This document shows, piece after piece, positions 14,845-44,264 of a stretch of 64,000 nucleotides of DNA. The notes under the pieces were generated by a model that saw only the letters and a program-made list of their open reading frames with translations, did not search any database and was not told the origin of the DNA. Numbering within the stretch: the stretch's first letter is position 1; every line of letters begins with the position of its first letter. The stretch lies in assembly GCA_902774115.1 (NCBI GenBank), contig CACYHH010000002.1, forward strand, positions 248,001-312,000, written 5' to 3'. The translations under genes were made by a program, and so were the position numbers. This DNA comes from an uncultured Spirochaetales bacterium (GTDB lineage: Bacteria > UBP6 > UBA1177).

Positions 14845-14856
14845 TGGGGTGGCACT

Positions 14857-16482: not shown

Positions 16483-16514
16483 TTTGTTTGTCAATTAGTT
16501 AGAGGTTTCTGAAG

Positions 16515-20147: not shown

Positions 20148-20149
20148 TC

Positions 20150-21316: not shown

Positions 21317-21324
21317 GAGAAAAT

Positions 21325-21352
21325 TTGATATTTCGAGCTTAATGGCTACACT
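21325..21352 (+). promoter_or_regulatory. internal promoter before the small secreted protein gene
   Basis: TTGATA (21325-21330), a 16-bp spacer and TACACT (21347-21352) fit a sigma-70 promoter. It would let the last three genes of module A be expressed separately from the TPR genes. Confidence 0.55.
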
Positions 21353-21384
21353 AAGGCGTTGATTTTAATACGGAGGTCGTTGCT

Positions 21385-21645
21385 ATGAAAAAGTTGGTCG
21401 CTGTTTTGTTTTTGTTGCTTTCTTTTTCGTTTCTGGCTGCACAGGAAACCGATGAAGAAGGTCGACTTATCAAATACCGTGAAAAAACTGTCATCGATTT
21501 CGAAGATGTCATGTTGGAAGGTCAGATCAAGAAACCTTCGGGTTCATTCCTTATGGATAGATCCAAAACCAAATTCAACTCTTTGATCAACCTTAAACAG
21601 GATTTCAACAAGGAGTTGGTAAGGTCTGTTGACCTGCTTAATTAG
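21385..21645 (+). CDS. small secreted protein with EGxIxKP motif, module A
   Basis: The 86-residue protein has a signal peptide (MKKLVAVLFLLLSFSFLAAQ) and a 65-residue mature part. The core VMLEGQIKKPSGSFLMDRS followed by LINLKQDFNKELVRSVDLL has a clear counterpart at 33025 (IQIEGTIQKPEVMTFLSRA, then LDLNVSFLEEVEKAV). In both modules the gene sits between the TPR lipoprotein gene and the genes for the TonB-like and motor proteins. I recall small exported proteins with a similar KP..FxLxR pattern beside ExbB/ExbD genes in myxobacteria, but no named family. It may bind the periplasmic face of the motor or the TonB-like protein. Confidence 0.78.
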   Translation: MKKLVAVLFLLLSFSFLAAQETDEEGRLIKYREKTVIDFEDVMLEGQIKKPSGSFLMDRSKTKFNSLINLKQDFNKELVRSVDLLN

Positions 21646-21688
21646 AGTGTTGTTATGTTGATGTTAACCATTATATGAGGCCGAGACT

Positions 21689-23098
21689 ATGCCTGAGAAA
21701 TCAAAAATGAGAAAAAGATTGCTTTACGATTTGTCTCCCATTCCGGGTGTGCCGGTAAATGACGGAGCCAAAGGAAAATTAGAGCCGGAAATCAGAGTCG
21801 TTTACGACAACAAAGTCCTGCTCGATTTGCAGAAAGTCGACAAAAAATTCACATTGGGAACTGAAAACGGTGCTGATTGTATTGTGGATGAAGCGTTTTT
21901 GTCCGACAATATGTTCGATTTCGCTTCTGTTTCCGGTCAGAATTTTTCCGTAAGTCTCAAGAACGGATTTAAAGGAACTCTTTACAAGGGAACAGAAAAG
22001 ACCGATTTGGAAAAGTACATCGCTGAAGGTCATACGAGTGTTGATATCGATGATACGACGCTTCTCGTTGCGGATTTCGGCAAGATTTCGGTCTGCGCTC
22101 TGAAATCTCCTGCGGAAAAGTACAAAGGCGGTGCGTTGCAGTTCGATTTTGCATTTGCAATAATCCTGCTCCTCATCTTCATTATCGGTGGTTTTGTTTT
22201 CAATATGATTGTTGAGACTCCGCCTATCGAAGTCGATATTTTCGAGCTTGACAACAGATTCGCAAAACTGATCGTTGAGACGAAAGAAGAAGAAATAAAG
22301 GTCGAAGAGATCGAAGAAGAAAAGAAAGTCAAACTCGAAAAGCCGAAAGAAGGTCTTGTCGAAGCTACTTCGCAAAGAAAGTCTCTCGGTGAAGAAGGTA
22401 GAGTCGGTGACAAGAAGAGCCGTGTTGCAAACGCACAGGGTTCCGCAAGAAGAGGTCTCGATGCAAAGGTTGCTCAGAGCTCCGGTATTATGGGTGCTCT
22501 TTCATCAGGTGCTGCAAGCTTCGACCGGGTATTCGGCGGCGGCGGTCTTGGTGCCGGCATGGAAAAGACACTCGGTTCCGTAACAGGTCTCGCAGGTGTT
22601 GACCAGTTCGGTTCGGGCGGTCTCGGAACAAGAGGTTTCGGTACAGGCGGCGGCGGTAACGCTCTCGGAATCGGCGGTCTCGGAACAAGAGGACGTGGCG
22701 GCGGCGGTGCCGGCGGAAAATATGGTATGGCAGCTGGTCAGATCGGAAGAAAAGGCCGTTCGGATATTTCCGCAGGCGGCGGTCAGGCAGTTATCATGGG
22801 TGCTCTTGACAGATCTGTCATTGATGCATACATCAGAAGAAACCTTGCGAAGATCAGATGGTGCTACGAGAAGGAACTTAACAAGGATCCGAAACTTTTC
22901 GGAAGAATCGTTATCAACTTCATCATTTCTGCAACAGGTGCTGTAAGCAGTTCCAAAGTGCAGAGAACCACGATGGGTAACGCAACGGTTGAAAGTTGTG
23001 TCGCAGATCAGATCAAAAAGATTCGTTTCCCTGCTCCTAAAGGCGGCGGTATCGTTATCGTAAATTACCCGTTCGTATTTAAGAATTCAGAAAGCTAA
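21689..23098 (+). CDS. FHA-like/TM/Gly-rich/AgmX-PglI C-terminal protein, module A (GltG/NfsG-like design)
   Basis: The 469-residue protein appears to span the envelope. A beta-rich cytoplasmic domain (about 34-140) has an FHA-like fold pattern. One membrane span follows (about 153-173, AFAIILLLIFIIGGFVFNMIV), then the LDNRFAKLI motif. A charged helix and a Gly-rich flexible stretch (about 255-345) lead to an AgmX/PglI-type, TonB-related C-terminal domain (about 365-469) with the paired Cys motifs WCYEKEL and ESCVADQ and the ending RFPAPKGG..VNYPFVF. In Myxococcus, GltG and NfsG have this plan and link the Agl motor to periplasmic parts. It shares plan and motifs with the protein at 35161. 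Its partner motor is probably the ExbB/ExbD set at 33277. Confidence 0.82.
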   Translation: MPEKSKMRKRLLYDLSPIPGVPVNDGAKGKLEPEIRVVYDNKVLLDLQKVDKKFTLGTENGADCIVDEAFLSDNMFDFASVSGQNFSVSLKNGFKGTLYKGTEKTDLEKYIAEGHTSVDIDDTTLLVADFGKISVCALKSPAEKYKGGALQFDFAFAIILLLIFIIGGFVFNMIVETPPIEVDIFELDNRFAKLIVETKEEEIKVEEIEEEKKVKLEKPKEGLVEATSQRKSLGEEGRVGDKKSRVANAQGSARRGLDAKVAQSSGIMGALSSGAASFDRVFGGGGLGAGMEKTLGSVTGLAGVDQFGSGGLGTRGFGTGGGGNALGIGGLGTRGRGGGGAGGKYGMAAGQIGRKGRSDISAGGGQAVIMGALDRSVIDAYIRRNLAKIRWCYEKELNKDPKLFGRIVINFIISATGAVSSSKVQRTTMGNATVESCVADQIKKIRFPAPKGGGIVIVNYPFVFKNSES

Positions 23099-23109
23099 GG
23101 GGGAAAAAC

Positions 23110-23763
23110 ATGAAAAAGTTGTTTGTGTTGCTTATGGCACTTTTGGTCAGTTTTTCGCTTTTGGCTGAGGCTGAAGAAGCTACGGGCGATGTTTCCGGCA
23201 ACGATCTGAATCCGATCCTCAGAGGTCTTCATCTTCAGTTCTCCGGCGGTCTCGTAGGTTATGTCGGCAAAGCTGGCGGAGACAATGCCGGAAGTCCGAT
23301 CGGTTCGACATTGAGGCTCAATTTCGGTTATGACATTCCTGTTCAGGATAAAGTAAATATCGGAATCGCGCTTTCCCTCGGTATGCTCCAGTTCAATGCA
23401 AAAGAAAACGATGCCGATCTTGAGCAGAATCACAAGGATTCACCCTGGGTTGAAGACTACAGCCCTCTCACAGTCGGTCTTGATTTCGATGTCACGTGGA
23501 TGATTGATCCGAGATGGGAATTCGGTGTCCTCGTAAACTTTGACTACTACGCTTTGGCAAAAACTTATAAATCCGGTAAAGATGCGCTGGATAAAGATGC
23601 TACCAACAACGGCAATATTGCTGTCGGCGGCGGTTTGATTTTCGAGCGTTACACTTTTGCCCGCCATTTCTCGGTAGGCGCTTCCGTTGAGTTCAACTAT
23701 GTTGTTGATTTCGACGGTATGAATATCATTTTCACTCCTTTCATGAAGTACACGTTCTTCTAA
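23110..23763 (+). CDS. outer-membrane beta-barrel protein, module A
   Basis: The 217-residue protein has a signal peptide (MKKLFVLLMALLVSFSLLAE), then alternating strands from about residue 40 (LHLQFSGGLVGYVG) to a terminal aromatic strand (MNIIFTPFMKYTFF). This is the layout of an 8-strand barrel. It starts 12 nt after the TonB-like gene and has a GGGGG-type binding site. It is likely the second outer-membrane part of the module. The function is unknown. Confidence 0.75.
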   Translation: MKKLFVLLMALLVSFSLLAEAEEATGDVSGNDLNPILRGLHLQFSGGLVGYVGKAGGDNAGSPIGSTLRLNFGYDIPVQDKVNIGIALSLGMLQFNAKENDADLEQNHKDSPWVEDYSPLTVGLDFDVTWMIDPRWEFGVLVNFDYYALAKTYKSGKDALDKDATNNGNIAVGGGLIFERYTFARHFSVGASVEFNYVVDFDGMNIIFTPFMKYTFF

Positions 23764-23768
23764 GTGCT

Positions 23769-24569
23769 GTGTTTTCCTTCAACAAAAATCCTGTAGGTAT
23801 CTTTGACAGCGGTGTCGGCGGTCTTACTGTTTTTGATCAGGTAAAGAAAGTTCTGCCCGGCGAAAGTGTTTTTTATCTCGGCGATACGGCGCGAGTTCCC
23901 TACGGAAGCAAGTCTGTCGATGTCGTAAAGCACTATTCGCTGACCAATGTCAATCTGCTGATGGCTCTCGGCGTCAAGGCGGTTGTAGTTGCCTGCAATA
24001 CTGCATCTGCAGCGGCACTTTCTTTTCTGCAGGAGCGTTTTCCGAATTTCAACATAATAGGCGTTATCGAACCGGTTGTCGAATATCTGCTGACCCGGCC
24101 TGAACTTAAGCGGATAGGTATAATCGGAACGAATACGACTATTTTGTCGGGGGCTTATCAGAAGGCTCTGATCCGCGGCAACAAGGATCTGGATATTTCG
24201 GCCAAGGCGTGTCCTCTGTTCGTTCATCTGGTGGAAGAAGGGCTTTTTAAGGGAGAGATCACAGAAATGGCAATTGATATGTATCTCTCTGAAATGAAGA
24301 AGAATCCGCCTGACGCACTTGTTCTCGGATGTACACATTATCCGATGCTTAGAAGTGTTATTTCCGATTATTTCGGCGGAAAAGTTGAAATTCTTGACAC
24401 AGCTTTTTATACGGCAAAAAAACTTGCCGGAATTTTGTCTGAAAATGATATGGTTAATTGCGTAAGTAATGAAAATGACAGGTTTTTTGTCACTGACGAT
24501 CCGAATTCTTTCAAAGCTACGGCAGAGCTTTTTCTCGGATATAAAGTCGGCAATGTTTTCCATATTTAA
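23769..24569 (+). CDS. murI: glutamate racemase
   Basis: The enzyme makes D-glutamate for peptidoglycan. The 266-residue length is normal. Catalytic features are all present: FDSGVGG (Asp13), the first catalytic Cys in VVACNTASA (Cys76) and the second in LGCTHYP (Cys188). The start is a GTG at 23769, only 5 nt after the barrel gene stop, without a clear ribosome binding site, so translation may depend on coupling. It is the only obvious housekeeping gene between the two envelope modules. Confidence 0.95.
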   Translation: MFSFNKNPVGIFDSGVGGLTVFDQVKKVLPGESVFYLGDTARVPYGSKSVDVVKHYSLTNVNLLMALGVKAVVVACNTASAAALSFLQERFPNFNIIGVIEPVVEYLLTRPELKRIGIIGTNTTILSGAYQKALIRGNKDLDISAKACPLFVHLVEEGLFKGEITEMAIDMYLSEMKKNPPDALVLGCTHYPMLRSVISDYFGGKVEILDTAFYTAKKLAGILSENDMVNCVSNENDRFFVTDDPNSFKATAELFLGYKVGNVFHI

Positions 24570-25555: not shown

Positions 25556-27847
25556 ATGATCAGAGAGCTTAAAGTTCTTTTTCTGTTGTTGCTCTGTTTT
25601 CCGGCGGTCGCAGCGGCGGATTCTCAGGAAGTTCCTGCCGTTGCCGGCAGCGGTCTTGACCAGGCGCGCTCGTCTCTGAGAGAGATCAATGCCGAATTCG
25701 AGAACAACTTAAAAAGATATCTTTCTCTTAATATTTCCGACGCCGACTACAAGCTGTCGCCTTCCGAAAAGATGAAAAAGGGTGATTTTTTCTTCGGAAA
25801 AGGCGATTACTCAACGTCTGCCGGTATTTTTTATTCGGTAACGGTGTCGGTTTCCGACAGTGACGCTGTAAAGTACGAGGCTCTCTACAAGCTCGGCGAA
25901 TCGCTGTTCATGCAGAAAAATTACGTTTCCGCGACCCGTTATTACGAGATGCTTCTTACCTCTCACGGCAACGCAGGTTTGAAAGCGAAGGCTCTTAAAA
26001 GGCTTATATTCATGAGCTATTCTCTGGGTGAATACGCGGCGGCTGAAAAGTACTACGACCAGTTCGTACAAGGCGGCAACGATATTTACGCCGATCAGGA
26101 ACTTCTTTACTATTTTGCAAAATCGCTTTTCTTCGCGGGAAAAACCGATGAAGCGGTTAAACTTTTTTCTTCGGTAAACAAGGAATCGGCATATTATCCG
26201 CAGGCACGCTATTTTCTCGGCGTCATGGCGCTGCGCGATAAAAAACTCGAAGACTCGCGTGTTTTCTACGAAGAGATACTCTCTCTTCCGGAAGATGGCG
26301 GGTACCACAATTTCAAAAATATCCGCGAGCTTGCAGGACTTGCAGTTGCAAGAATAGCTTTCGATCTCGACGATCAGGAAACGGCTTCGACGTACTACCT
26401 GCCGACAGCATTCGATTCGCGTTCTTTCCCGCAGGCTTACTATGAGCTGAGCTGGACTTTCATTAAGCGCGATCAGTTCGAAAATGCGGTCGACACACTG
26501 CGTCTCGTTAAAAATGTCGCTCCGAATTCCAGAGTCGCGACTCAGGCGGAAATTCTTGAAGGAACCCTTCTTGTCAAAATGGGACGTTTCGGCGAGGCTC
26601 TCGTGCTTTTCAATTCGATAGTTTCGAAATACAGCAAATATCAGGACGAGCTTTTCTCGATCGACGGAAAGGCTTTCCTTGCAAGCGGAAGAGCCGGAAA
26701 GGTTTCCGATTTCCTTCTTCCTTACTCTCCGGCAGTACGTTCGGTACTTGAAGACAGTAAGAAATTTTCGGAAACTGTCGCTCTGAACGACACGATCATC
26801 GGGCTGGAAGAAGAGCTCAAGCGTATCGAAGATCTGGAAAAGAAGATCGTGACGATGGCGGGCAACAAAAATTCCGCAGCTATTTTCCCGCCTCTTAAAG
26901 AGGCTGTCAGGGGCGTTATGACGCTCAGAAACAAAGTCGCGGTTGTAAAAAATTCGCTCGTTATGGCGAGAAACGGTTTCGCCGGTACGGGTCTTTCTGA
27001 AGAACAGCGCGGCGAATTCGAAAAACTTGATTCTGAAAAACGCAGACTTCTTGAAATAGACAACACTGCTTCGGTCGCTCACGAAAGGATCAGGGAACGC
27101 GCCGAGGAATACGGTGACAAGGTCGTTAAACTCGACGAAAGGATGCACCTTGTTTCGATGCAGCTTAATTCCCTTGCCGAAAATCTCGATCTTCTGATCG
27201 CTTCGTATTCGGAAGAAAAGAGTGACGGAAAAGAAAAGGAAAACGACAAAGAGATCCTCGACAGGATCGGTCAGGAACGCGAAAGATTCAACGCTCTTTC
27301 GGCTGAAAGCGATGCCTGCCAGGCTGAGATAGACGATGAGAAAAACGGTCTCGTTCTCGGCGGAACGCTTGTCGAAGCGGAAAACGAGATAAGGGATTCT
27401 TTCAACGGAATCGTAGCACGTCAGCAGGGCATCATCGGAACTTCCTCCGACAGAAGAGAGGCTCCTGAAGTTGCAGATCTTATCGAAGAAGCCGACAGGA
27501 TCGATGCAAAACTCGCCGATTTCTACGACAGGCTGAACGACTCGATGAAAGGGATCGTTTCGGATCTCAAGGTTTCATACGAGCAGGAAAAAAGCAATGT
27601 CGAATCTTACAAGAGCGAGCTTCTGAGGGCAAAGCGCGAGGTCGAGGAAATGGCGGTTCTCGCGATTTATTCGAATATGAATACCGCACGCAATATTTTT
27701 GCAGACCTTGTACTTCAGGGCGATCTCGGACTGATAGATGTCGCGTGGGAGAAGAAGGAGGAATCCACTTCCGAAATCATGCGTCTCAAAACCAAGAAAG
27801 CTACCGAAATACAGCAACTCCAATTTAATTTAGACGGTGAACAATGA
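25556..27847 (+). CDS. secreted TPR/coiled-coil protein, module B (paralogue of the protein at 14857)
   Basis: The 763-residue protein begins with a signal peptide (about 1-21, LFLLLLCFPAVAAAD) without a lipobox, unlike its paralogue at 14857. TPR-like helix pairs fill about 55-375. A long charged coiled-coil region follows (about 400-763, with several EEELKRIEDLEKKI-type segments). The YPQARYFLGV segment ties it to 14857. It starts 2 nt after the upstream gene and its stop overlaps the next start (ATGA), so translation is coupled. It is likely a rod-like periplasmic element. Confidence 0.8.
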   Translation: MIRELKVLFLLLLCFPAVAAADSQEVPAVAGSGLDQARSSLREINAEFENNLKRYLSLNISDADYKLSPSEKMKKGDFFFGKGDYSTSAGIFYSVTVSVSDSDAVKYEALYKLGESLFMQKNYVSATRYYEMLLTSHGNAGLKAKALKRLIFMSYSLGEYAAAEKYYDQFVQGGNDIYADQELLYYFAKSLFFAGKTDEAVKLFSSVNKESAYYPQARYFLGVMALRDKKLEDSRVFYEEILSLPEDGGYHNFKNIRELAGLAVARIAFDLDDQETASTYYLPTAFDSRSFPQAYYELSWTFIKRDQFENAVDTLRLVKNVAPNSRVATQAEILEGTLLVKMGRFGEALVLFNSIVSKYSKYQDELFSIDGKAFLASGRAGKVSDFLLPYSPAVRSVLEDSKKFSETVALNDTIIGLEEELKRIEDLEKKIVTMAGNKNSAAIFPPLKEAVRGVMTLRNKVAVVKNSLVMARNGFAGTGLSEEQRGEFEKLDSEKRRLLEIDNTASVAHERIRERAEEYGDKVVKLDERMHLVSMQLNSLAENLDLLIASYSEEKSDGKEKENDKEILDRIGQERERFNALSAESDACQAEIDDEKNGLVLGGTLVEAENEIRDSFNGIVARQQGIIGTSSDRREAPEVADLIEEADRIDAKLADFYDRLNDSMKGIVSDLKVSYEQEKSNVESYKSELLRAKREVEEMAVLAIYSNMNTARNIFADLVLQGDLGLIDVAWEKKEESTSEIMRLKTKKATEIQQLQFNLDGEQ

Positions 27848-32890: not shown

Positions 32891-32959
32891 AAATGATATT
32901 TAAAAATGATAGTATAATCAAATTGTTGCGTGTTTTTTGCAACGCTTTTGCCAAAAAAT

Positions 32960-32988
32960 TTGCTTTAAAAAATTTGTTCGTATATATT
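32960..32988 (+). promoter_or_regulatory. internal promoter before the small protein and motor genes
   Basis: TTGCTT (32960-32965), a 17-bp spacer and TATATT (32983-32988) lie in the 134-nt gap after the TPR lipoprotein gene, which also holds a TATAAT at about 32924 and a short hairpin (GTTGC/GCAAC). Expression of the motor genes may thus be set independently. Confidence 0.55.
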
Positions 32989-33024
32989 CCCGCCAACTTT
33001 GTTCTTATAAAGGGTAATTTTGTG

Positions 33025-33243
33025 ATGCTTTTTATTTGTGCGCTTATTGCTTCGCTGCTTTTTTCGTTCAATGTCGAAGCAAAGACAATTGTTATAGAAG
33101 AGATTCAGATCGAAGGAACCATACAGAAACCCGAAGTCATGACGTTTTTGTCAAGGGCTAAATTCTCTTACCGTTCGCTGGATCTGAACGTTAGTTTTTT
33201 GGAAGAGGTGGAGAAAGCCGTCTGTGTAGACGATGCTTTCTAG
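33025..33243 (+). CDS. small secreted protein with EGxIxKP motif, module B
   Basis: The 72-residue product has a signal peptide (MLFICALIASLLFSFNVEA) and a mature part with IQIEGTIQKPEVMTFLSRA followed by LDLNVSFLEEVEKAV, matching the protein at 21385 in order and spacing. I chose the ATG at 33025 because upstream codons lie in the promoter region; a GTG at 33022 is possible. The gene directly precedes exbB, by 33 nt, while in module A it directly precedes the TonB-like gene. This conserved place suggests a role at the motor/TonB-like interface. Confidence 0.75.
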   Translation: MLFICALIASLLFSFNVEAKTIVIEEIQIEGTIQKPEVMTFLSRAKFSYRSLDLNVSFLEEVEKAVCVDDAF

Positions 33244-33276: not shown

Positions 33277-33918
33277 ATGATTACTTGGTTTGCTGAGTTT
33301 TATCGTTCAGGCGGAACGTTCATGCACTTCATCGCTGTTTGCGGTCTTTACGTTCTCGGTGTTGCAATTTACAAATGCATTTTCCTTCTTGTAAAATTCA
33401 ACACAAACGGCGCAAATTTGATGAAACAGATTCAGAAACTTGTTATGGCAAACAATGTTGACAAAGCTATCAAACTTTGCGACGCAGCAGGCGATGCAGC
33501 ACTTGCAAAAGTTATGAAAGCTGGTCTTTCCAGAGCTAACAGAGGCGAGCTTGAAATCCAGAACGCAATGGAAGAAGCTACTCTTGAAGTAACCCCGAAA
33601 ATTTCGAAACTCCTTCCCAGCATGTTCGCTATTTCGAGTACCGCTACAATGTTCGGACTTCTTGGAACGATTTTCGGTCTTATCGATGCATTCGACGCAG
33701 TTGCTCACGCTGCTCCTGAGCAGAAATCGGCAATGCTTGCAAGCGGTATCGCTATCGCTATGAACACCACCGGTTGGGGTCTTATGATCGCTATTCCTGG
33801 AACGATTATCCACCTTGTTCTTAACGGTCTTGCAGGAAAAATACTCAATGACCTTGATCTTTACTCTGTAAAACTTTCCAACCTGCTTGTTAACAGAGAA
33901 AAAGGAACGGCTGAGTAG
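33277..33918 (+). CDS. MotA/TolQ/ExbB family proton-channel motor subunit
   Basis: The 213-residue inner-membrane protein has three membrane spans (about 14-38, 111-139 and 157-185). The conserved TolQ/ExbB core appears as ATMFGLLGTIFGLIDAF in the second span and the Thr pair in IAMNTTGWGLMIAIPG in the third, where the proton path of the family lies. An AGGAGG site precedes the ATG. It would form the pentameric stator-like channel around a pair of the ExbD proteins encoded next. In Myxococcus the equivalent AglR works with AglQ and AglS. Here one ExbB serves two ExbD-type genes. Confidence 0.93.
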   Translation: MITWFAEFYRSGGTFMHFIAVCGLYVLGVAIYKCIFLLVKFNTNGANLMKQIQKLVMANNVDKAIKLCDAAGDAALAKVMKAGLSRANRGELEIQNAMEEATLEVTPKISKLLPSMFAISSTATMFGLLGTIFGLIDAFDAVAHAAPEQKSAMLASGIAIAMNTTGWGLMIAIPGTIIHLVLNGLAGKILNDLDLYSVKLSNLLVNREKGTAE

Positions 33919-33947: not shown

Positions 33948-34496
33948 ATGGGTAAGAGACGTTCAGAAGGATCCACTCAGGATCTCGATATGACGGCTGC
34001 AATGAACCTCATTCTTATTCTTATACCGTTGTTGTTGACCTCAATGGAGTCTGTAAAAATAGCCGTTGTCAACGTTGCTACACCGCAGATCGGTCCTTCT
34101 TCCGAGGCAAATCCGCCGGCAGACAGACCGGACGATAAACCTCTTAAACTGACAGTTGCTCTCACTGACAGAGGCATTACTGTTTTTGTAAGAGATCAGG
34201 TTATTGAAAACAAAGACGATCCGTTGGGTCCGACGATTCTTAAAATTGACGGACAAGAAGAAGATGCGGAAGGCAGAATGGTCGATGCAAAAGTTTATGA
34301 TATTGATAAACTTGTTGAGATCATTTCGGATTTGAAAGATGCAAATCCGGCTGAAGAAAATATTATTATTACGGCTGAGCCGAACACTAAGTACAAATAC
34401 ATTATGAAAATAATGGACGCTACCCGCGAGAAAAAGGACGGCGAAAAGAAGAAAACTCTTTTCCCGAACGTCGTACTTAGCGCAGGCATAGCATAA
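33948..34496 (+). CDS. ExbD/TolR family protein with Asn in place of the usual membrane Asp
   Basis: The 182-residue protein has a short cytoplasmic N-terminus, one membrane span (about 17-38) and a periplasmic domain. The family motif around the proton-carrying Asp (PLIDVMLVL in ExbD) reads TAAMNLILILIPLLL here, so the Asp position is Asn20. In the next gene the Asp is kept. The periplasmic part (LKLTVALTDRGITVFVRD) has the ExbD/TolR fold pattern. The nearby Asp residues (12 and 14) lie before the membrane and are not equivalents. It is probably a structural partner rather than the proton carrier. Confidence 0.88.
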   Translation: MGKRRSEGSTQDLDMTAAMNLILILIPLLLTSMESVKIAVVNVATPQIGPSSEANPPADRPDDKPLKLTVALTDRGITVFVRDQVIENKDDPLGPTILKIDGQEEDAEGRMVDAKVYDIDKLVEIISDLKDANPAEENIIITAEPNTKYKYIMKIMDATREKKDGEKKKTLFPNVVLSAGIA

Positions 34497-34506
34497 GGAG
34501 GGTATT

Positions 34507-35082
34507 ATGGCAGAAGAAAACAAAACTTACGAATACCTCCCGGAAAATTATGAAGAAGAAATCCTGATGAGCAGGAGAAAATCTAAAACAGGAAGAGAAA
34601 GCGCAGGCGGACAGAAATTAAACATCAACTCCTTGATGGATATTCTTACGATCATGCTCGTTTTCCTGCTTAAGAGCTATGCAACAGATCCTATCAACAT
34701 TACTCCTGGACCGGATTTGGATATTCCGAAGTCAACTTCACTCTTGCAGCCTGCTGCAACTGTTACAATTACGGTTGCTAAGTCTTCAATAGTTGTTGAC
34801 AACGAACCGGTTTCGGTTGTAAAAGACGGTAAAGTTGAAGCTTCACAGAAACGCGGCGGCGAAGACGCTTATTTCATTATTCCTTTGAATAAGGCGTTGG
34901 TCGAAGCTGTCGAAAAGAAAAGACGTCTTGAAGCTATCAACCCGACTGTTAAGTTTGATGGCGTTGCTACAATCGTTATGGATAAGGAAACTCCGTATCG
35001 TTTGTTGACAGAGGTTATGTACACGGCTGGTCAGGCGGAATTCTCGAACTTTAAGTTCGCTACGATTTCTGCTGCCGGTTAG
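34507..35082 (+). CDS. ExbD/TolR family protein with the canonical Asp
   Basis: The 191-residue protein has a longer charged cytoplasmic N-terminus (about 1-38), one membrane span containing NSLMDILTIMLVFLLKSY, in which Asp45 is the proton-binding residue of the family, and a periplasmic domain (about 60-191). It begins 10 nt after the first exbD. In Myxococcus the matching Asp of AglQ is needed for motor function. Together with the Asn-containing partner it could form a heterodimer with a single proton carrier. Confidence 0.92.
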   Translation: MAEENKTYEYLPENYEEEILMSRRKSKTGRESAGGQKLNINSLMDILTIMLVFLLKSYATDPINITPGPDLDIPKSTSLLQPAATVTITVAKSSIVVDNEPVSVVKDGKVEASQKRGGEDAYFIIPLNKALVEAVEKKRRLEAINPTVKFDGVATIVMDKETPYRLLTEVMYTAGQAEFSNFKFATISAAG

Positions 35083-35092
35083 TATGTTTTAT

Positions 35093-35128
35093 GTGGCCGG
35101 CATTAAGTTGCCGGTCACACAGTTTTTT
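35093..35128 (+). terminator. terminator or attenuator after the motor genes
   Basis: The stem GTGGCCGGCA/TGCCGGTCAC (35093-35118, one G-T pair, 6-nt loop) is followed after 4 nt by six T residues. It lies between exbD and the TonB-like gene and could reduce read-through, giving more motor than TonB-like protein. Confidence 0.7.
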
Positions 35129-36576: not shown

Positions 36577-37221
36577 ATGTCTTTTTCAAAGATTTTTTTA
36601 TTGTTCGTCTCTTTGCTTTTGGCTTCTGCACTTTATGCAGATATTAAAGATGACGCTCAGGCAAAGGCAAGCAAGATTGCCGATGTAGAGGCTGAATTGA
36701 ACAAGGCCAATGCAGATGCTTCTGCGGCAAAGGATCAGAAATGGAAATCATGTGTCAGCGGACATCTTGGTTCGGTAAAGAACTTGGTTTCCAGTGCGTC
36801 AGGCGTAGTTTCCAAGATTGTTGCTTTGGTTGCTGCCGGTAAACTTGCTGAAGCTCAGGGACAGCTTGTAATTTTGAATGGAATGGCTGAATCGGCAGAA
36901 AAATCGTTGGCTGCTGCACAATCCTGCGAGCGTTCAAATCAAACTCAGACTAAGACGGAACAGCAGACTGTTGCCAGAGTCACTGTTTCCAGTGCTTTAA
37001 ATCTTAGTATGGGTAACGATATGCCGACTGAAATAAACCGTGGTTCAATGGAAGGTTCCGATTCCGCAGATGCGGCGGGTATTGATGCGAGCGGTGTCAT
37101 TCAGACTGCAAATGATGCTTCTGCCGCTAATGAGATCACTGCTACTGCTACCGAAACTCCTGAAGACGCTTCTCAGGTAGAGCAAGTTCCTGATCAGGAA
37201 GATCAGAGTCCTACAATGTAA
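36577..37221 (+). CDS. secreted helical protein of unknown function
   Basis: The 214-residue protein has a signal peptide (MSFSKIFLLFVSLLLASALYAD). A helical coiled-coil-like domain (about 23-130) has two Cys residues, in KSCVSGHL and AAQSCERSN, that could form a disulfide. A disordered Ala/Thr/Glu/Asp-rich tail ends it. I do not recognise a named family. I recall similar small secreted helical proteins with one KxxCVxxK helix next to exporter genes in myxobacteria. It sits between the TonB-like gene and the barrel/exporter genes. Confidence 0.7.
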   Translation: MSFSKIFLLFVSLLLASALYADIKDDAQAKASKIADVEAELNKANADASAAKDQKWKSCVSGHLGSVKNLVSSASGVVSKIVALVAAGKLAEAQGQLVILNGMAESAEKSLAAAQSCERSNQTQTKTEQQTVARVTVSSALNLSMGNDMPTEINRGSMEGSDSADAAGIDASGVIQTANDASAANEITATATETPEDASQVEQVPDQEDQSPTM

Positions 37222-37246: not shown

Positions 37247-38668
37247 ATGACAACTAACAGAAATTTTTTCATGGCAGTTTGTTTTGTACTGCTTGTTATG
37301 GCTTTTCCTGTGTATGCATTTGCGGAAGATGCTCCGGAAAAAGGTTTTAAAATAACAAAAGATACAGTTTTGAATGTAGGTATCGCTATCAATCCGGAGT
37401 TTGAGTCGAACATCACTAAAGCTTCGGAAGATACAGTAACTACCGATACGAGAGTTGATGACGGGGCAGAGAAGAAGGCGGAGATCATTTCGGATATGAT
37501 TCTCCACTACAGTCCGTCTCTCCGTATCAAACTTGATGACGATAAGAAGACTCTCGGCTTTTCACTTCTTTTCGACTACAACCACTATCTCGGTCTTGAA
37601 GACAAGAAAACATCGAAAAAGCTCTCCGAACTTGACATCAGATCGGATCTTTTGGGTGAATTCAACAAAGACGGTCTTGTAATTTTCGATTTCAAAAACT
37701 CTCTTTCAAGATCTTCGACTCCCGACGGACAGGAACTTTCCGGAAAGAACAGAAACCTTATGGATTCTTTTGCAGTAGGCGTTGCGTTCAAGAGTGTTGA
37801 AGACGTCCTTTACGGAAAGATCAAACTCGGTTTCGACATCAACTACCTTGAACAGTCGAAAAATAATGCAGCTTATAAAGATTACAACTACATTTCCCCG
37901 TTCCTTGATCTTTTCGGAAGATGGAAATTCCTCCCGAAAACGATGGCTTTCGCTTCTTTTTCGGTAAGATATCAGGATTACTACGAGTCAAAAATCCGTG
38001 ATGATTCCAGAGCTGTTCCGATAAATATTTTCCTTGGTGTAATGAGCCAGTTCACTCCTTATATCTCAGGAAAACTTGCAGCCGGTTATTCTGCAAATGT
38101 CAGCAGCAGCGTTCAGCATGACTACAATATGAATGCTGAGTTGATTTTCAAATATCAGGATACCGGTCTTGCTCTCGGATACCTCAAAACGATGCGTCCT
38201 TCTGCTTATTTCCAGTATAATTCGACGCATAAAGTTTACTTGAACTTCAAACAGAAATTCGCACAAAAATTCCTTGCTTCGATGAATTTCAGCTATTCTT
38301 ACCTTATGTACGGCAAGAATATAGAGTTTAAGAGCAGGGATGAATACACCCAGGCTAATGACGGTTCCTATCAGAAAGTTGATACATATGATGACGGTTC
38401 GACCGTCACATACTCGGTTCTTATGCCGAAAGGAAAACGCAGAGATCATCTTATAAACTTCGGTCCGTCGCTTTCCTACGCTATTTTCCCGTGGTTCGGT
38501 CTCAAACTCGGTTATGATCTTGAATACAAAGATACCGATTACGTCAGAACTTCGACTACGAATTTCAACCACGCAACAAACGCTGAACAGAATTATACAA
38601 GAATGACTGCAACCCATTACGACTACATCGACCACAGGGTAATGCTTTCAATCGTTCTTGATTACTAA
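37247..38668 (+). CDS. outer-membrane beta-barrel upstream of the short OPX gene (WzpX-like role proposed)
   Basis: The 473-residue protein has a signal peptide (to about residue 26, FPVYAFAED), then a barrel of many amphipathic strands to a terminal IDHRVMLSIVLDY strand. Typical motifs are LRIKLDDDKKTLGFSLLFDYN and LDLFGRWKFLPKTMAFASFSVRYQDYYES. It lies 5 nt before a polysaccharide exporter lipoprotein that lacks its own membrane-crossing part. In Myxococcus, WzpX, WzpS and WzpB are barrels proposed to complete such short OPX proteins. The barrel is sequence-supported; the role is inference from context. Confidence 0.8.
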   Translation: MTTNRNFFMAVCFVLLVMAFPVYAFAEDAPEKGFKITKDTVLNVGIAINPEFESNITKASEDTVTTDTRVDDGAEKKAEIISDMILHYSPSLRIKLDDDKKTLGFSLLFDYNHYLGLEDKKTSKKLSELDIRSDLLGEFNKDGLVIFDFKNSLSRSSTPDGQELSGKNRNLMDSFAVGVAFKSVEDVLYGKIKLGFDINYLEQSKNNAAYKDYNYISPFLDLFGRWKFLPKTMAFASFSVRYQDYYESKIRDDSRAVPINIFLGVMSQFTPYISGKLAAGYSANVSSSVQHDYNMNAELIFKYQDTGLALGYLKTMRPSAYFQYNSTHKVYLNFKQKFAQKFLASMNFSYSYLMYGKNIEFKSRDEYTQANDGSYQKVDTYDDGSTVTYSVLMPKGKRRDHLINFGPSLSYAIFPWFGLKLGYDLEYKDTDYVRTSTTNFNHATNAEQNYTRMTATHYDYIDHRVMLSIVLDY

Positions 38669-38673
38669 TTTTT

Positions 38674-39309
38674 ATGAATAAAATCCTCCACTTTTTCTTA
38701 TTTTTTTTTAGTCTCTCGCTTTTTGTATCCTGCACGATAAGAGTCGGTGAAAACAACGCCGACAGACAGACGACTTCTCAGACTTCGTCAGAAGCTGTGG
38801 AAGAAGAGGAGGATCATCTTTCTTTCATCGGTGCAGGTGACAAAATCAACATTCAGGTTTACAACGAAAAGGAGCTGTCCGGCGTTTATCAGGTAAGTCC
38901 GGAAGGCTATATTACTTTCCCTTTTATCGGCGAAATCAAGGTCGACGGGCTCAATATTTTCACACTTGCGATGAAGATTTCCTCAAAGCTGAAGGAAGGT
39001 TATCTGAAAGAGCCGAATGTTACAGTTTTGGTTGAAGAGTTCGTAAGCAAGCGTATTTTTGTTTTGGGGCAGGTCAAAAAGGCCGGCAGTTTTCCGATCA
39101 GAAGGCGCATGAGCGTCATCGAAGCGATAAGCCTTGCCGGAGGATTCACCAATCTGGCCGATCTTTCGAATGTTGTTGTGACCAGAAAGGGTGATGACGG
39201 CAGGGAAAAACGCTTTGTCGTTGATATAAAATCGATAGTGAACGGCGCAAAGGAGAATTTTTACCTTGATGCCGGAGATATAGTTTTTGTCGGAGAGAGA
39301 TTCTTCTGA
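38674..39309 (+). CDS. polysaccharide export lipoprotein (short Wza/OPX type)
   Basis: The 211-residue protein has a lipobox LSLFVSC (Cys20). A Poly_export domain (about 49-125, FIGAGDKINIQVYNEKELSG onward) is followed by one SLBB-like domain (about 128-180, KRIFVLGQVKKAGSFPIRRR). It ends right after, so the second SLBB repeats and the C-terminal outer-membrane helix of E. coli Wza (about 380 residues) are absent. It is a short, periplasmic OPX that needs a separate barrel; the gene 5 nt upstream codes for one. Its stop overlaps the next start (TGATGA). Confidence 0.93.
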   Translation: MNKILHFFLFFFSLSLFVSCTIRVGENNADRQTTSQTSSEAVEEEEDHLSFIGAGDKINIQVYNEKELSGVYQVSPEGYITFPFIGEIKVDGLNIFTLAMKISSKLKEGYLKEPNVTVLVEEFVSKRIFVLGQVKKAGSFPIRRRMSVIEAISLAGGFTNLADLSNVVVTRKGDDGREKRFVVDIKSIVNGAKENFYLDAGDIVFVGERFF

Positions 39310-41498
39310 TGAATGAACAGGAACGCGAAATAGATTTAATGGAAATCCTTGCCTTGCTTAAAAGGCATATTTATTTGTTTATCGCGATAATCCTGATCGT
39401 GATGACTTTTACTGTTGCACAGATCTACCGCATGGTGAAAATCTACGAGTCGACCGCGACGATCGAAATTGAACCCAAAGCGGCAAACGTTCTCGGCGGG
39501 AACATGGAAGTCATCCAGAGCGGAACTCAGGGAAATGTTTTTGCGAACAAAGACTACTATGCGACTCAGTATGAGATAATCAAGAGCCGTGCTGTCGCTC
39601 AGAAAGTGCTTGAAATGGTTCCTGGTGAAAATGTTCTCGAGTATCTCGGTTTCGACCTCGAAAAAATCGAGCCTGATAAAATCAAGGATATTGATCCGAT
39701 AGCCGTTCTTCTGACCAAAATCAACGTTATGCCGCAGAAAAACAGCAATATCGTCCGTATCTCGGTCGAAGACAAAGACCCGGAAAAGGCGGCTTTCTTA
39801 GCAAACGCGGTAGCTTCATCTTACATAGAATTCAACCTTGAAAAGAAGTATTTTGAAACGAAGGACGCTGCCCGCTGGCTTATGGATCAGAGCGTGAGCC
39901 TTAAGCAGAACCTTGAAAATTCGGAAATGATGCTTTTTGAGTTCAAGCAGAGCAACAATGTCCTTGCCACGACTTTCGAGGCTAAGCAGGAACTTCTTTC
40001 AAACCGCATAATCAAGCTGACAAACACTCTGACCGATCAGGAAATAAAGCGCAACGCTCTCACGGCCAAGATCGAGGAGTACGCTCACCTCAACATCGAC
40101 AATCCTGAAGACGGTTTTTTTAAGGAAATCAGCAAGGAAAACCCGATTATCGGCAATTTGAAGCTTAAGTATCTTGACGTAGTGTCGAAAATAAACGAAT
40201 CGGAACAGGTTTACGGCGAGAAACATCCGAAAGTTGTTACTCTGCTCGCCGACAAGGAAAATATCGAAAAGACTTTCAAAAGCGAGATTGAAGGTGTTGT
40301 TAGCAGTTACAATCTCGAACTGAAAATGCTCGACAACGAGATGAAAAAGAACCGCAAAATGCTTTCGGAATCGCAGACAGAGGCGATAAATCTGAACAAG
40401 CTCGACATCAACTACAGCAAGCTGCGCCGTGAAGTCGAGACCAATAAGAAGCTTTACGACATAGTTCTTGAAAGGTCGAAAGAGGCTGATCTCAGCGCGC
40501 TCCTCAAGAACAACAACATCCGCATGATCGACCGTGCGCTTGTTTCGAAGATTCCTGTGAAGCCGAGAAAGCAGATAATCCTGCTTGCAGGCTTTGCAAT
40601 CGCGCTTGTTTTAGCGTCTCTCGCGGTTTTTCTCGTCGAATTTTTCGATACCAAGTTCAAGAGCTTCAAAGAACTTGAAACTATTTCAGGAAAGTCGCTT
40701 CTCGGTATTATTCCTAAGTTCCAGCAGATCGAAACCTCTCAGTTCAAAGAGATCGCTTTTGAGGATAAAAGCGGTAAAAACCTTGCAGTAGAAGCTTTCA
40801 GATCTCTCAGAACCAATATCAAGCTGAGCAACCCTGATTCAAAGCTCAAAGTCATGCTCGTTACAAGTTCCGTTCCGCACGAAGGTAAAACGATCGTCTC
40901 TTCGAACCTTGCAGCGAGTTATTCGGTCGCCGGCAAAAAGGTGCTTCTGATCGATGCCGACATGAGAAAACCGAGAGTCCATAAAGTTTTCGGACTCAAG
41001 AACGAAAAAGGTCTTTCGACTTTGATCGTCGGTGAACATTCGATGGACGATGTCATCAACAAGAACGTTTACGACGGGCTTGACGTCGTTACTGCAGGCA
41101 TCATTCCGCCGAACCCGGCAGAACTTCTTGAGAGTGCCCGTTTCGCAGATATCCTGAAAGATTTTTCGGAAATTTACGATGTCGTTATCATCGATACTCC
41201 GCCGCTCAGTCCGGTAAGCGATGCCGCGACGATCGCACCTATGACCGACGGACTCATCCTTGCAGTCAACATCAGCGAGACTCCGCGCGATGTCTTCAAG
41301 TCTGTCATCGCGAATATTTCGAAGCCCGGCATCATTCGTCTCGGCGTTGTCGTCAACAACATCGATTTCAAGCAGGAAAAGAAATTCAAGTCTTATTACG
41401 GCTATTCATATTACCATTCGTCATACTACAAATCGAACTATTATTACTACACGTCCGATGAAGATGGAAAAACTAAAAAGAAGAAAAAACATTCTTAG
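39309..41498 (+). CDS. polysaccharide co-polymerase with tyrosine autokinase domain (Wzc-like)
   Basis: The 729-residue inner-membrane protein regulates chain length and export of a surface polysaccharide. An N-terminal Wzz domain lies between two spans (about 21-40 and 422-444) with a long periplasmic coiled coil. The cytoplasmic BY-kinase has Walker A SSVPHEGKT (about 520-528), Walker A' LLIDADMRKPR (546-556) and Walker B VVIIDTPPL (625-633). The tail is rich in Tyr (about 696-714, many YY pairs), the autophosphorylation cluster of the family. It partners the OPX protein encoded just before. No glycosyltransferase, flippase or polymerase gene lies in the window, so the sugar chain must be made from elsewhere. 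Confidence 0.95.
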   Translation: MNEQEREIDLMEILALLKRHIYLFIAIILIVMTFTVAQIYRMVKIYESTATIEIEPKAANVLGGNMEVIQSGTQGNVFANKDYYATQYEIIKSRAVAQKVLEMVPGENVLEYLGFDLEKIEPDKIKDIDPIAVLLTKINVMPQKNSNIVRISVEDKDPEKAAFLANAVASSYIEFNLEKKYFETKDAARWLMDQSVSLKQNLENSEMMLFEFKQSNNVLATTFEAKQELLSNRIIKLTNTLTDQEIKRNALTAKIEEYAHLNIDNPEDGFFKEISKENPIIGNLKLKYLDVVSKINESEQVYGEKHPKVVTLLADKENIEKTFKSEIEGVVSSYNLELKMLDNEMKKNRKMLSESQTEAINLNKLDINYSKLRREVETNKKLYDIVLERSKEADLSALLKNNNIRMIDRALVSKIPVKPRKQIILLAGFAIALVLASLAVFLVEFFDTKFKSFKELETISGKSLLGIIPKFQQIETSQFKEIAFEDKSGKNLAVEAFRSLRTNIKLSNPDSKLKVMLVTSSVPHEGKTIVSSNLAASYSVAGKKVLLIDADMRKPRVHKVFGLKNEKGLSTLIVGEHSMDDVINKNVYDGLDVVTAGIIPPNPAELLESARFADILKDFSEIYDVVIIDTPPLSPVSDAATIAPMTDGLILAVNISETPRDVFKSVIANISKPGIIRLGVVVNNIDFKQEKKFKSYYGYSYYHSSYYKSNYYYYTSDEDGKTKKKKKHS

Positions 41499-42210
41499 CC
41501 TGTTTTTCGTGCTCGGCGCGGCTGTTTTGTCTCTTTTGTCGGCAGGCTGCGAATCTCCGAGAGTGATAAACCATCCCGTTTCGAGAGGCGATACATATTA
41601 CTATTACGTCACTTTTTACGGTGATGAATACAACGGAAAACAGATGGCTAACGGCGAGACTTTTTCAAATGACGCCATGACCTGTGCGGCAAAAGGATTT
41701 CCGTTCGGAACGGTGCTTGAAGTCCAGTCGCTTGATACCGGAAAAAAGGTCGAAGTCACAGTTGCCGACAGACCGGGAAAAGAGGTCGTAGACCTTACAA
41801 GAAAGGCTTTTGATATGATAGACAACGCGTCAAAAGGAAAAATCAGGGCAAAAATCAAAGTCGTAGGTCTGGCTGAAAGCGCCCCGAAAGCTGCTCCTGC
41901 TGCTGCGGCTGAACCGGAAAAGAGCACCGAAGAAGAAAAAACGGAATCTGCAAAAGAAGAAAAAAAACCCGAAGCAGAAGCTCCGAAAGAGACTAAAAAA
42001 GAGGTTTTTTATGCAATTATGCTCGCGGCATTCGGCAATATAGATGCGGCAAAGGCTTATCAGAGCGGAATAAAGGAAGATACCTACATCTTTGCACAGG
42101 ACGGTAAATTCGAGGTCAGATACGGCAGATACGCTTCAAAAGAGGAAGCACAGGCTGATATAAATAATTTTTCATGGAAAGATGCTGAAATAGTTACAAT
42201 TGAAGAATAG
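41458..42210 (+). CDS. RlpA-like lipoprotein with C-terminal SPOR domain
   Basis: The 250-residue protein has a lipobox LLSAGC (Cys31), an RlpA-type double-psi barrel (about 45-125) and a C-terminal SPOR domain (about 175-250) that would bind denuded peptidoglycan. RlpA proteins are septal lytic transglycosylases. The Glu in ANGETF and the Asp in VADRPG are kept, but the usual His in the TAAH segment is Lys (CAAKGFPFGT), so activity is uncertain. The gene overlaps the kinase gene by 41 nt, or by 35 nt with the ATG at 41464. No clear ribosome binding site was seen, so coupling is likely. Confidence 0.82.
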   Translation: MKMEKLKRRKNILSLFFVLGAAVLSLLSAGCESPRVINHPVSRGDTYYYYVTFYGDEYNGKQMANGETFSNDAMTCAAKGFPFGTVLEVQSLDTGKKVEVTVADRPGKEVVDLTRKAFDMIDNASKGKIRAKIKVVGLAESAPKAAPAAAAEPEKSTEEEKTESAKEEKKPEAEAPKETKKEVFYAIMLAAFGNIDAAKAYQSGIKEDTYIFAQDGKFEVRYGRYASKEEAQADINNFSWKDAEIVTIEE

Positions 42211-42866: not shown

Positions 42867-44264
42867 ATGCTTGAGAGATTCGACAATTATCAGTTGCTGT
42901 CAAAGATCGCTACGGGCGGAATGGCTGAGATTTTTCTTGCCAAGCACGTGAATTCTCCTGTCAATTCGATGCCGATTGCAATCAAAAAGGTGCTGAAACA
43001 GTACGGAAACAATCCGATGCTTGTCAAGATGTTTCTTGCCGAGGCAAGGATAATCTGCAATATAAGCCACGAAAATATCGTTAAAATCTACGATTTCGGA
43101 AAGTTCGACGATCAGTATTTCATCGCGATGGAATACGTTTTCGGGCAGAATTTAGGCGCGATAATCGAAAAACTCAAAGAAAGGGATCTGATTATGCCGC
43201 TAAATCTCACGATCGAGATAATTTCGGCTGTTCTTTGCGGTCTTGACCACGCCCACAACGCTCAGGACAGAAACGGCAACTTCCTGAACATCGTTCACCT
43301 CGACATGAATCCGAACAACATTCTGATTTCCTACGAAGGAAAGATAAAAGTCGTCGATTTCGGCATCGCAAACGCGAATTACACCAAAAAATTCAAGGAT
43401 TCCGCTGGAATACAGGGAACTTATGCATACCTTTCACCGGAACAGTGCAGCGGCAAGGCGGTCGACAGGCGCAGCGACATATTTTCAGTCGGTATAATCC
43501 TTTACGAAATGCTGACGGGGCATACGCTCTATAAGCAGCTGGACAACGATATGGCGATCATGAATTCGATCTTGAACGACGAAATCGAGCCGATAAACGA
43601 GCTTATGCCCGAAATCGATCCGAAACTTGCCAAAATCGTTATGAAGGCACTCGAAAAGAACCCGAACAGACGTTATGCTTCGGCGATGGATATGCGTGAA
43701 GACCTTCAGCTGGTCTATAATTCGCTTGAATTCGATCCGAACAGCGAAATGCTCCCCGCATTCGTGAAAAAACTTTTCCCGGCTCACTTCATCAAGATGA
43801 CGAAGATCATAGAACAGGCGCAAACCGAGTATCTTATGGATGAATTGTTCAACAATATCGGTGAGCTGGAAGATCTTGACCTCGAAGAGAAAAAGAAAAC
43901 CGAAGAGGCTGCGCGCCAGAAGGAAGAGGCTGAAAAAAAGCGCGTAAAAAAGAAAGCTTTCTTTTCAAGATTAGGTCTTGTTTCCGGGATAGTTGCAGGG
44001 CTTGCGGTCATTGCGCTGATTCTTAAATTCCTGTTTGTCGATCCCGATGTCAAAGTCGATATGATAACGGTTTTCTCGAATCCAGGCGGTGCGCAGATTT
44101 TCGTTGACGGCGAGGATACAGGCAAGGTGACACCGGCATCGCTTCAGCTTGAACACGGCAAAAAATACATAATCGATTTCATAAAGGACAATATGATAGG
44201 TACTCTTGAATTTACGCCGAGTTCAGAAAACCGTCAGATAAATATGCAGCTTAAGCCAAGGTAA
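42867..44264 (+). CDS. transmembrane Ser/Thr protein kinase with PEGA domain
   Basis: The 465-residue protein has an N-terminal Hanks-type kinase domain (about 7-285). It has the Gly-rich loop IATGGMAEIF, Lys40 (IAIKKV), Glu59, the catalytic loop HLDMNPNN (Asp146; Leu in place of the usual Arg of HRD) and DFG (164-166). A basic coiled linker (about 335-365) is followed by one membrane span (about 370-391) and a periplasmic PEGA domain (about 398-465, VFSNPGGAQIFVDGEDTGK). The catalytic loop resembles the HRDxSPxN form of myxobacterial kinases. It has a strong AAAGGAGG site. The PEGA domain may sense the cell surface. Confidence 0.93.
   Translation: MLERFDNYQLLSKIATGGMAEIFLAKHVNSPVNSMPIAIKKVLKQYGNNPMLVKMFLAEARIICNISHENIVKIYDFGKFDDQYFIAMEYVFGQNLGAIIEKLKERDLIMPLNLTIEIISAVLCGLDHAHNAQDRNGNFLNIVHLDMNPNNILISYEGKIKVVDFGIANANYTKKFKDSAGIQGTYAYLSPEQCSGKAVDRRSDIFSVGIILYEMLTGHTLYKQLDNDMAIMNSILNDEIEPINELMPEIDPKLAKIVMKALEKNPNRRYASAMDMREDLQLVYNSLEFDPNSEMLPAFVKKLFPAHFIKMTKIIEQAQTEYLMDELFNNIGELEDLDLEEKKKTEEAARQKEEAEKKRVKKKAFFSRLGLVSGIVAGLAVIALILKFLFVDPDVKVDMITVFSNPGGAQIFVDGEDTGKVTPASLQLEHGKKYIIDFIKDNMIGTLEFTPSSENRQINMQLKPR

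Follow-up and report, generated by a model that had tools for sequence, protein, structure and literature searches.

A predicted WzaB/WzpB-like polysaccharide exporter encoded with an AglR/ExbD-GltG motor in an uncultured rumen bacterium

How polymers of the Wzx/Wzy pathway cross the outer membrane when the outer-membrane polysaccharide export (OPX) protein forms no pore, and whether this step is energised, are questions raised by a locus of an uncultured Spirochaetales bacterium from the rumen. The window, as the whole stretch of 64,000 nucleotides analysed is called here (contig CACYHH010000002.1, positions 248,001 to 312,000), encodes an outer-membrane beta-barrel, a short OPX protein (a putative lipoprotein) and a Wzc-type tyrosine kinase downstream of genes resembling the AglRQS-Glt motor of Myxococcus xanthus. 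It is probable, though well short of certain, that this is a composite OPX/barrel polysaccharide exporter of the WzaB/WzpB type working with a dedicated AglR/ExbD/ExbD-GltG motor. Polymer export, contact between barrel and OPX and action of the motor on the exporter are all inferred.

The barrel, the short OPX and the Wzc-type kinase form a tight unit. Five nucleotides separate the barrel gene from the OPX gene, the OPX and kinase genes overlap by one, and both distances are unchanged in nine congeneric genomes. An earlier sequence-only reading of this DNA had given the coordinates of the three-gene stretch, the 473- and 211-residue lengths, the 5-nt spacing and the downstream kinase overlap, all of them correctly. 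It had also described the OPX as having one SLBB-like domain and no outer-membrane helix, and the domain layout agrees: Poly_export (PF02563) spans residues 52-120 (E 1.9e-21) and a single SLBB domain residues 126-206, leaving five of the 211. The best solved relative is a polysaccharide export protein of 186 residues (PDB 9n9a, E 1.6e-37), and because the alignment to it reaches the last residue of both chains, the protein lacks the outer-membrane helix of Wza. Its hydrophobicity is confined to the N-terminal segment, where the signal ends in a lipobox-like FVSC20, with an unusual F at -3, that is kept in the genus and at locus L012 of a congener. The kinase is Wzc-like, as had been proposed, with Wzz, GNVR and AAA_31 (BY-kinase) domains, a TIGR01007 match above its cut-off, two transmembrane segments, DADMR and IDTPP motifs and 11 tyrosines among the last 40 residues.

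A short OPX beside a barrel is the arrangement of the composite translocon (Schwabe 2022, PMC9601211; Saidi 2022, PMC9603273). There the OPX has at most 280 residues with a PES, consists of domains D1 and D2 only and is a lipoprotein with a type 2 signal; a barrel gene lies within five genes, the barrel is 18-stranded, and a biosynthesis gene, with that of the polysaccharide co-polymerase (PCP) counted, is also within five genes, and barrel and OPX interact in exporting a polymer. The OPX of the window falls below this length, carries the PES as Poly_export and is of D1D2 form only, with the barrel gene immediately upstream and that of the PCP, Wzc, overlapping its own.

A direct Pfam search with the window barrel gave no match, a family-profile search gave no match to a gliding family, and PDB sequence searches using barrel profiles gave none either. 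A profile of 14 in-phylum barrels nevertheless aligns with the barrels of homologous loci outside the phylum at an hhalign probability of 100% (E 1.3e-40). Six of the nine barrels from those outside loci, and one member of the in-phylum set, match beta-barrel porin 2 (BBP2, PF10082). Profile homology confirms the window barrel as a homologue of the BBP2-type porins.

The motor genes upstream encode an AglR-like channel subunit and two ExbD/TolR-like subunits, and are followed by a GltG-like transducer, GltG2. One TolQ-like subunit, two TolR-like subunits and a GltG-type transducer, the composition of the AglRQS/Glt-type motor, are all present; the membrane Asp that this type has in both TolR-like subunits is replaced by Asn in ExbD1. 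Asn stands at this proton-binding position of ExbD1 in all the loci tested that combine AglR, ExbD, GltG and OPX, Ser takes its place in G270, where GltG is not exporter-linked, and ExbD2 has Asp. The motor axle may hence be asymmetric, with one proton site per axle. GltG2 bears an AgmX/PglI tail and scores 154 bits against the gliding GltG equivalog NF033760, short of the 650-bit cut-off. Between the motor genes and GltG2 lies a terminator-like hairpin, a strong stem of which is retained with altered sequence in most relatives.

The sequence-only reading had linked the exporter to the motor locus rather than to a biosynthesis locus, and this link is real and conserved across the order. Among 28 genomes of the phylum, the data being metagenome-assembled genomes (MAGs), the barrel is present in 21, and in 16 of the 18 good ones. 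The conserved order is TPR-TPR-TPR-AglR-ExbD-ExbD-GltG-coiled-coil-barrel-OPX-Wzc (TPR, tetratricopeptide repeat); it is intact in the genus and, on contigs of sufficient length, across families f1, f2 and f3, and is largely kept in another class of the phylum. L012 lacks GltG2 and the two larger downstream TPR genes adjacent to it but retains the remainder. In a family outside the order (G003), at about 30% protein identity, AglR, ExbD, ExbD, GltG, barrel, OPX and Wzc follow one another in this order, without the cysteine-containing (Cys) protein that usually lies between GltG and the barrel. The contig of G001 stops at barrel-OPX-Wzc.

The association also recurs outside the phylum. In 38 genomes chosen by GltG matches alone, seven have an OPX gene at most 5 kb downstream of GltG on the same strand, where a rough Poisson model gives a chance expectation of 0.64 GltG-OPX pairs in any orientation (P ~5e-6). 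The outside loci examined keep the order ExbD, GltG, Cys protein, barrel and OPX, usually with AglR and Wzc, some members being absent in some genomes. In G062 and G341 the cluster extends into Wzy_C, glycosyltransferase or epimerase genes, and the Wzy_C and glycosyltransferase genes downstream therefore support a true polysaccharide function. That motor and exporter are paired in many unrelated bacteria suggests, in turn, a role for the motor in exporting or moving the polymer.

Phylogeny points the same way for the transducer. A branch with 100/98 support divides the GltG tree, with all 12 exporter-linked proteins and the unlinked protein of G270 on one side and those of the Glt and Nfs-like loci and the remaining unlinked ones on the other; exporter-linked GltG is a lineage apart from the GltG of Glt and Nfs. 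In the OPX tree the window protein groups with the third OPX of a myxobacterium (91/91) and not with EpsY or the ExoA-like OPX. Motor-linked OPX proteins make up two groups rather than one clade, with at least four changes, and a single origin of the OPX-motor linkage is therefore not proven by the OPX phylogeny alone.

The myxobacterial genome (G055), recognised as such by GltG at 1033 bits and by EpsY, both above their cut-offs, has three OPX loci, and only the third (L178) scores well with both the barrel and the OPX profiles. Its OPX is neither EpsY nor the ExoA-like OPX. The GltD-like profile gives 793 bits to L178 as against 310 and 313 bits to the Glt and Nfs-like loci of the same genome, and the Nfs-like cluster was rejected as a counterpart, GltG2 and the GltD-like protein fitting the G4-like L178 far better. 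We infer that L178 is the 'orphan' wzaB/wzpB exporter of biosurfactant polysaccharide (BPS) beside the Glt-like G4 cluster, because it fits the published positions of WzaB (MXAN_1915) and WzpB (MXAN_1916; PMC9603273) and of the G4 gltD homologue MXAN_1922 (PMC3169522). WzaB is essential for BPS secretion (PMC7310880, PMC9603273), lies outside any synthesis cluster (PMC7484181) and has been termed orphan-like, at 1.016 Mb from its biosynthesis genes (PMC7310880). A literature search, with most subscription journals outside its coverage, found no paper naming MXAN_1915 and MXAN_1922 together. The likeness to the Myxococcus barrel/OPX proposal that had been noticed earlier thus acquires a specific counterpart, which the L178 profile scores and the OPX grouping indicate to be WzaB/WzpB and not EpsY or ExoA.

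Where the polymer would come from is a separate matter. The absence of sugar-synthesis genes from this neighbourhood, also noted earlier, holds good: the GT1, GT2, Wzx and Wzy_C matches of the genome all lie outside the window, and a PF02397 phosphoglycosyl transferase has no match anywhere in the genome. The sequence-only reading had regarded a full-length Wza beside biosynthesis genes, together with a lack of predicted contact between barrel and OPX, as fatal to its proposal. The first half of this is borne out in a weaker form, as a second OPX, of about 340-390 residues, does occur in most order-level genomes. The one in this genome (G000) combines Poly_export with two SLBB matches and has some 34 further residues, but stands alone (C3:108032, L002:1330-2364), whereas its homologue in family f3 adjoins a PCP gene, most such clusters also including Wzy, glycosyltransferase and Wzx-like genes; the biosynthesis cluster and its OPX gene are here separated. 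The Wzx/Wzy cluster of the genome (C1, 10.4-19 kb) lacks an OPX and encodes a PCP without a kinase, and because this PCP is homologous to that of f3, the long OPX probably serves the C1 cluster. The idea that the motor-linked exporter is the sole one in the genome was rejected once a full-length OPX was found; the motor-linked exporter is therefore an additional one, and the long protein shows the presence of two export systems without making the short pair spurious. On C4 a further Wzx cluster lacks PCP as well as OPX genes and is a tentative candidate for the polymer source of the motor-linked exporter. A GT2-rich cluster on C6 (L188), ending in a Wzt-like ABC ATPase, is probably an ABC-dependent O-antigen locus as read from its sequence.

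In the machine that is proposed here, Wzc, cycled by phosphorylation, would receive polymer made by a Wzx/Wzy pathway whose genes lie elsewhere, the OPX ring would convey it across the periplasm, and the barrel would serve as the outer-membrane pore. The proton-driven motor would contact this outer-membrane complex via the TonB-tailed GltG2 together with the TPR and Cys periplasmic proteins, a coupling that gene order and phylogeny suggest. The motor would then, as the first choice, gate or pull the polymer through the complex. The main alternative to such direct action is lateral transport, in which the motor would carry the exit site and its nascent polymer along the cell surface, as Agl-Nfs does with the spore-coat polymer. 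Direct action on the translocon is preferred for two reasons: the co-inheritance of GltG2 with the exporter, and its position past the hairpin, among the exporter genes. Several observations weigh against a coupled motor and exporter. L178 has the exporter block without AglR, ExbD and Wzc, which lie elsewhere in G055; G002 has barrel-OPX-Wzc without the motor, and G205 has it without AglR, ExbD and GltG; the hairpin splits the motor genes from the genes that start with GltG2; the AlphaFold2 model of the barrel, from 10 close homologues, has a pLDDT of 43.7, at which the strand number is unreliable; and in M. xanthus the kinase of the Exo exporter, BtkA, is not colocalised with moving NfsD (PMC3858216). 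As G002 has the exporter alone and the order is kept elsewhere, the exporter forms a self-contained unit, one that nearly always follows the motor.

The motor-less units of G002 and G205 and the position of the hairpin favour an ordinary composite exporter, whose adjacency to the motor would reflect shared regulation or ancestry, the motor performing some other envelope task such as gliding or Tol-like upkeep; the Glt-type GltC, GltG1 and CglE of the window could be driven by the same motor. Although it has to be taken seriously, this account is unlikely: the hairpin leaves GltG2 with the exporter genes, distant phyla have inherited the GltG2 lineage and the exporter together, gene order survives at about 30% protein identity, and GltG and OPX recur together far above chance. 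A gliding or surface-transport machine, in which the motor shifts exporter and slime polymer laterally, polymer on the substrate gives traction and export is not motor-driven, is rather unlikely. We know of no gliding in these rumen bacteria, which counts against it, as does the non-Glt lineage of GltG2. CglE above cut-off and a GltC homologue are nonetheless present in the window, and Agl-Glt and Agl-Nfs both handle surface polysaccharides (PMC3858216), but a polar MXAN_1922 mutation caused no motility defect in M. xanthus (PMC3169522). It is very improbable that the barrel is a Glt-type motor part, like GltA, GltB or GltH, with OPX and kinase co-opted as an anchor and no polymer exported. 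Whilst GltG adjoins the barrel here as gltG does gltH in M. xanthus (PMC3169522), some loci continue into Wzy and glycosyltransferase genes, and a Glt identity was rejected for a barrel that keeps its OPX and Wzc neighbours at motor-less loci (G002, G205), is of BBP2 type and matches no gliding family. A broader extension of the favoured explanation, that a widespread class of machines uses a TolQR-like proton motor to power polysaccharide passage across the outer membrane directly, via a TonB-like transducer acting on OPX and barrel, is put forward only tentatively.

Table 1. Features of the motor and exporter cluster, with window coordinates; L numbers denote loci.
Feature	Coordinates	Strand	Basis
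TPR protein, 763 aa, upstream end of conserved motor block	25556..27847	+	Pfam TPR; present in L012, L052, L056; weak in myxobacterial L178
GltD-like TPR protein, 1112 aa	27844..31182	+	own profile, best to L178
GltE-like TPR protein, 574 aa	31166..32890	+	NF033758 E 1e-16 (below cut-off); syntenic
Small secreted protein, 116 aa, IQKPE(A/V)M motif	32893..33243	+	same position in L050-L056, L168, myxobacterial L178
AglR-like MotA/TolQ/ExbB channel subunit	33277..33918	+	PF01618 E 1.5e-21; three hydrophobic segments
ExbD/TolR-like subunit 1, Asn replacing proton-binding Asp	33948..34496	+	PF02472 E 7e-9; alignment
ExbD/TolR-like subunit 2, Asp retained	34507..35082	+	PF02472 E 1.4e-10; alignment
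Terminator-like hairpin, 11 bp then T run, between motor genes and GltG2	35092..35119	+	sequence
GltG-like TonB-tailed transducer (GltG2), 464 aa	35161..36555	+	NF033760 E 5.5e-45; NF033768 tail above cut-off
Periplasmic helical protein, 214 aa, two conserved Cys (C59, C117)	36577..37221	+	conserved between GltG and barrel in most loci
Outer-membrane beta-barrel (Wzp-like), 473 aa, signal peptide	37247..38668	+	profile homology; AlphaFold2 low confidence
Short D1D2-type OPX, putative lipoprotein (WzaB-like), 211 aa	38674..39309	+	Poly_export + SLBB, PDB 9n9a match, OPX tree
Wzc-type PCP-2a tyrosine autokinase, 729 aa	39309..41498	+	domains, TIGR01007, transmembrane segments, motifs
RlpA-like DPBB + SPOR lipoprotein, start overlapping wzc by 35 nt	41464..42210	+	domains; syntenic

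Among the remaining genes (Table 1), the Cys protein is modelled by AlphaFold2 as three helices, with residues ~20-120 near pLDDT 90, and family-profile searches with it gave no match; its two cysteines are invariant from the rumen MAGs through to the myxobacterium. The small IQKPE(A/V)M protein encoded before aglR is without annotation and is encoded as well at loci outside the phylum, the myxobacterial one among them. Close downstream of the cluster a serine/threonine kinase with a PEGA domain is encoded at 42867-44264, and it may be speculated that the FHA-like start of GltG2 reads the marks of this kinase. A second Glt-type set at 13984-23763 comprises an OMP_myx_plus-like barrel (below cut-off), GltC (E 9e-77), GltG1 (E 5.5e-83) and CglE above cut-off, so that the window has one AglR-type motor as against two transducer sets, GltG1 and GltG2. 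An Asp/Glu racemase gene (MurI-like, 23769-24569) lies within the Glt-type block, and at L012 too. The genome has two further full-length MotA_ExbB proteins, encoded outside this locus; one adjoins ExbD and Pal-like genes in a Tol-Pal-like setting, these identities being read from sequence.

Motor-driven passage across the outer membrane, if true, would explain the orphan position of wzaB/wzpB and would give a function to the G4 Glt-like cluster. A periplasmic gap of ~100 Angstrom has to be bridged (PMC9603273), and no function has been assigned to the G4 cluster or to the Glt-like core complexes (PMC3169522). The conserved unit joins the orphan exporter to the Glt-like cluster, and both become testable in M. 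xanthus through BPS assays.

Composite OPX/barrel exporters are already published, and it is the motor neighbourhood that is new. Like EpsX/EpsY, ExoA/ExoB and VpsN/VpsM, the window pair has an OPX under 280 residues without an outer-membrane helix, a barrel encoded alongside and a PCP nearby (PMC9601211); the window pair also adjoins an ion-driven motor. The literature search, with the coverage given above, found no composite OPX/barrel pair described with such a motor and none joining OPX to ExbBD or TolQR. With WzaB/WzpB the locus shares a short D1D2 OPX adjoining a barrel, encoded away from biosynthesis genes and in the same OPX clade, and also, if the mapping of L178 is right, a neighbouring GltG/GltD-like cluster; it differs in that its cluster includes the AglR/ExbD/ExbD motor and a fused-kinase Wzc, both of which are elsewhere in the myxobacterial genome. 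The Glt-like core complex and G4 cluster resemble it in having a motor with a GltD, GltE and GltG-like set, although the text of PMC3169522 does not mention the exporter part. AglRQS-Glt and AglRQS-Nfs of M. xanthus likewise have one TolQ-like and two TolR-like subunits, a GltG transducer and large TPR proteins. Unlike them, the window has a GltG2 of separate lineage, built-in exporter genes and Asn in ExbD1, where AglQ and AglS are both said to retain Asp (PMC9389320). AglRQS-Nfs transports the Exo polymer over the spore (PMC3858216), and by analogy the window locus looks like an Agl-Nfs-like version in which the exporter and motor genes are joined.

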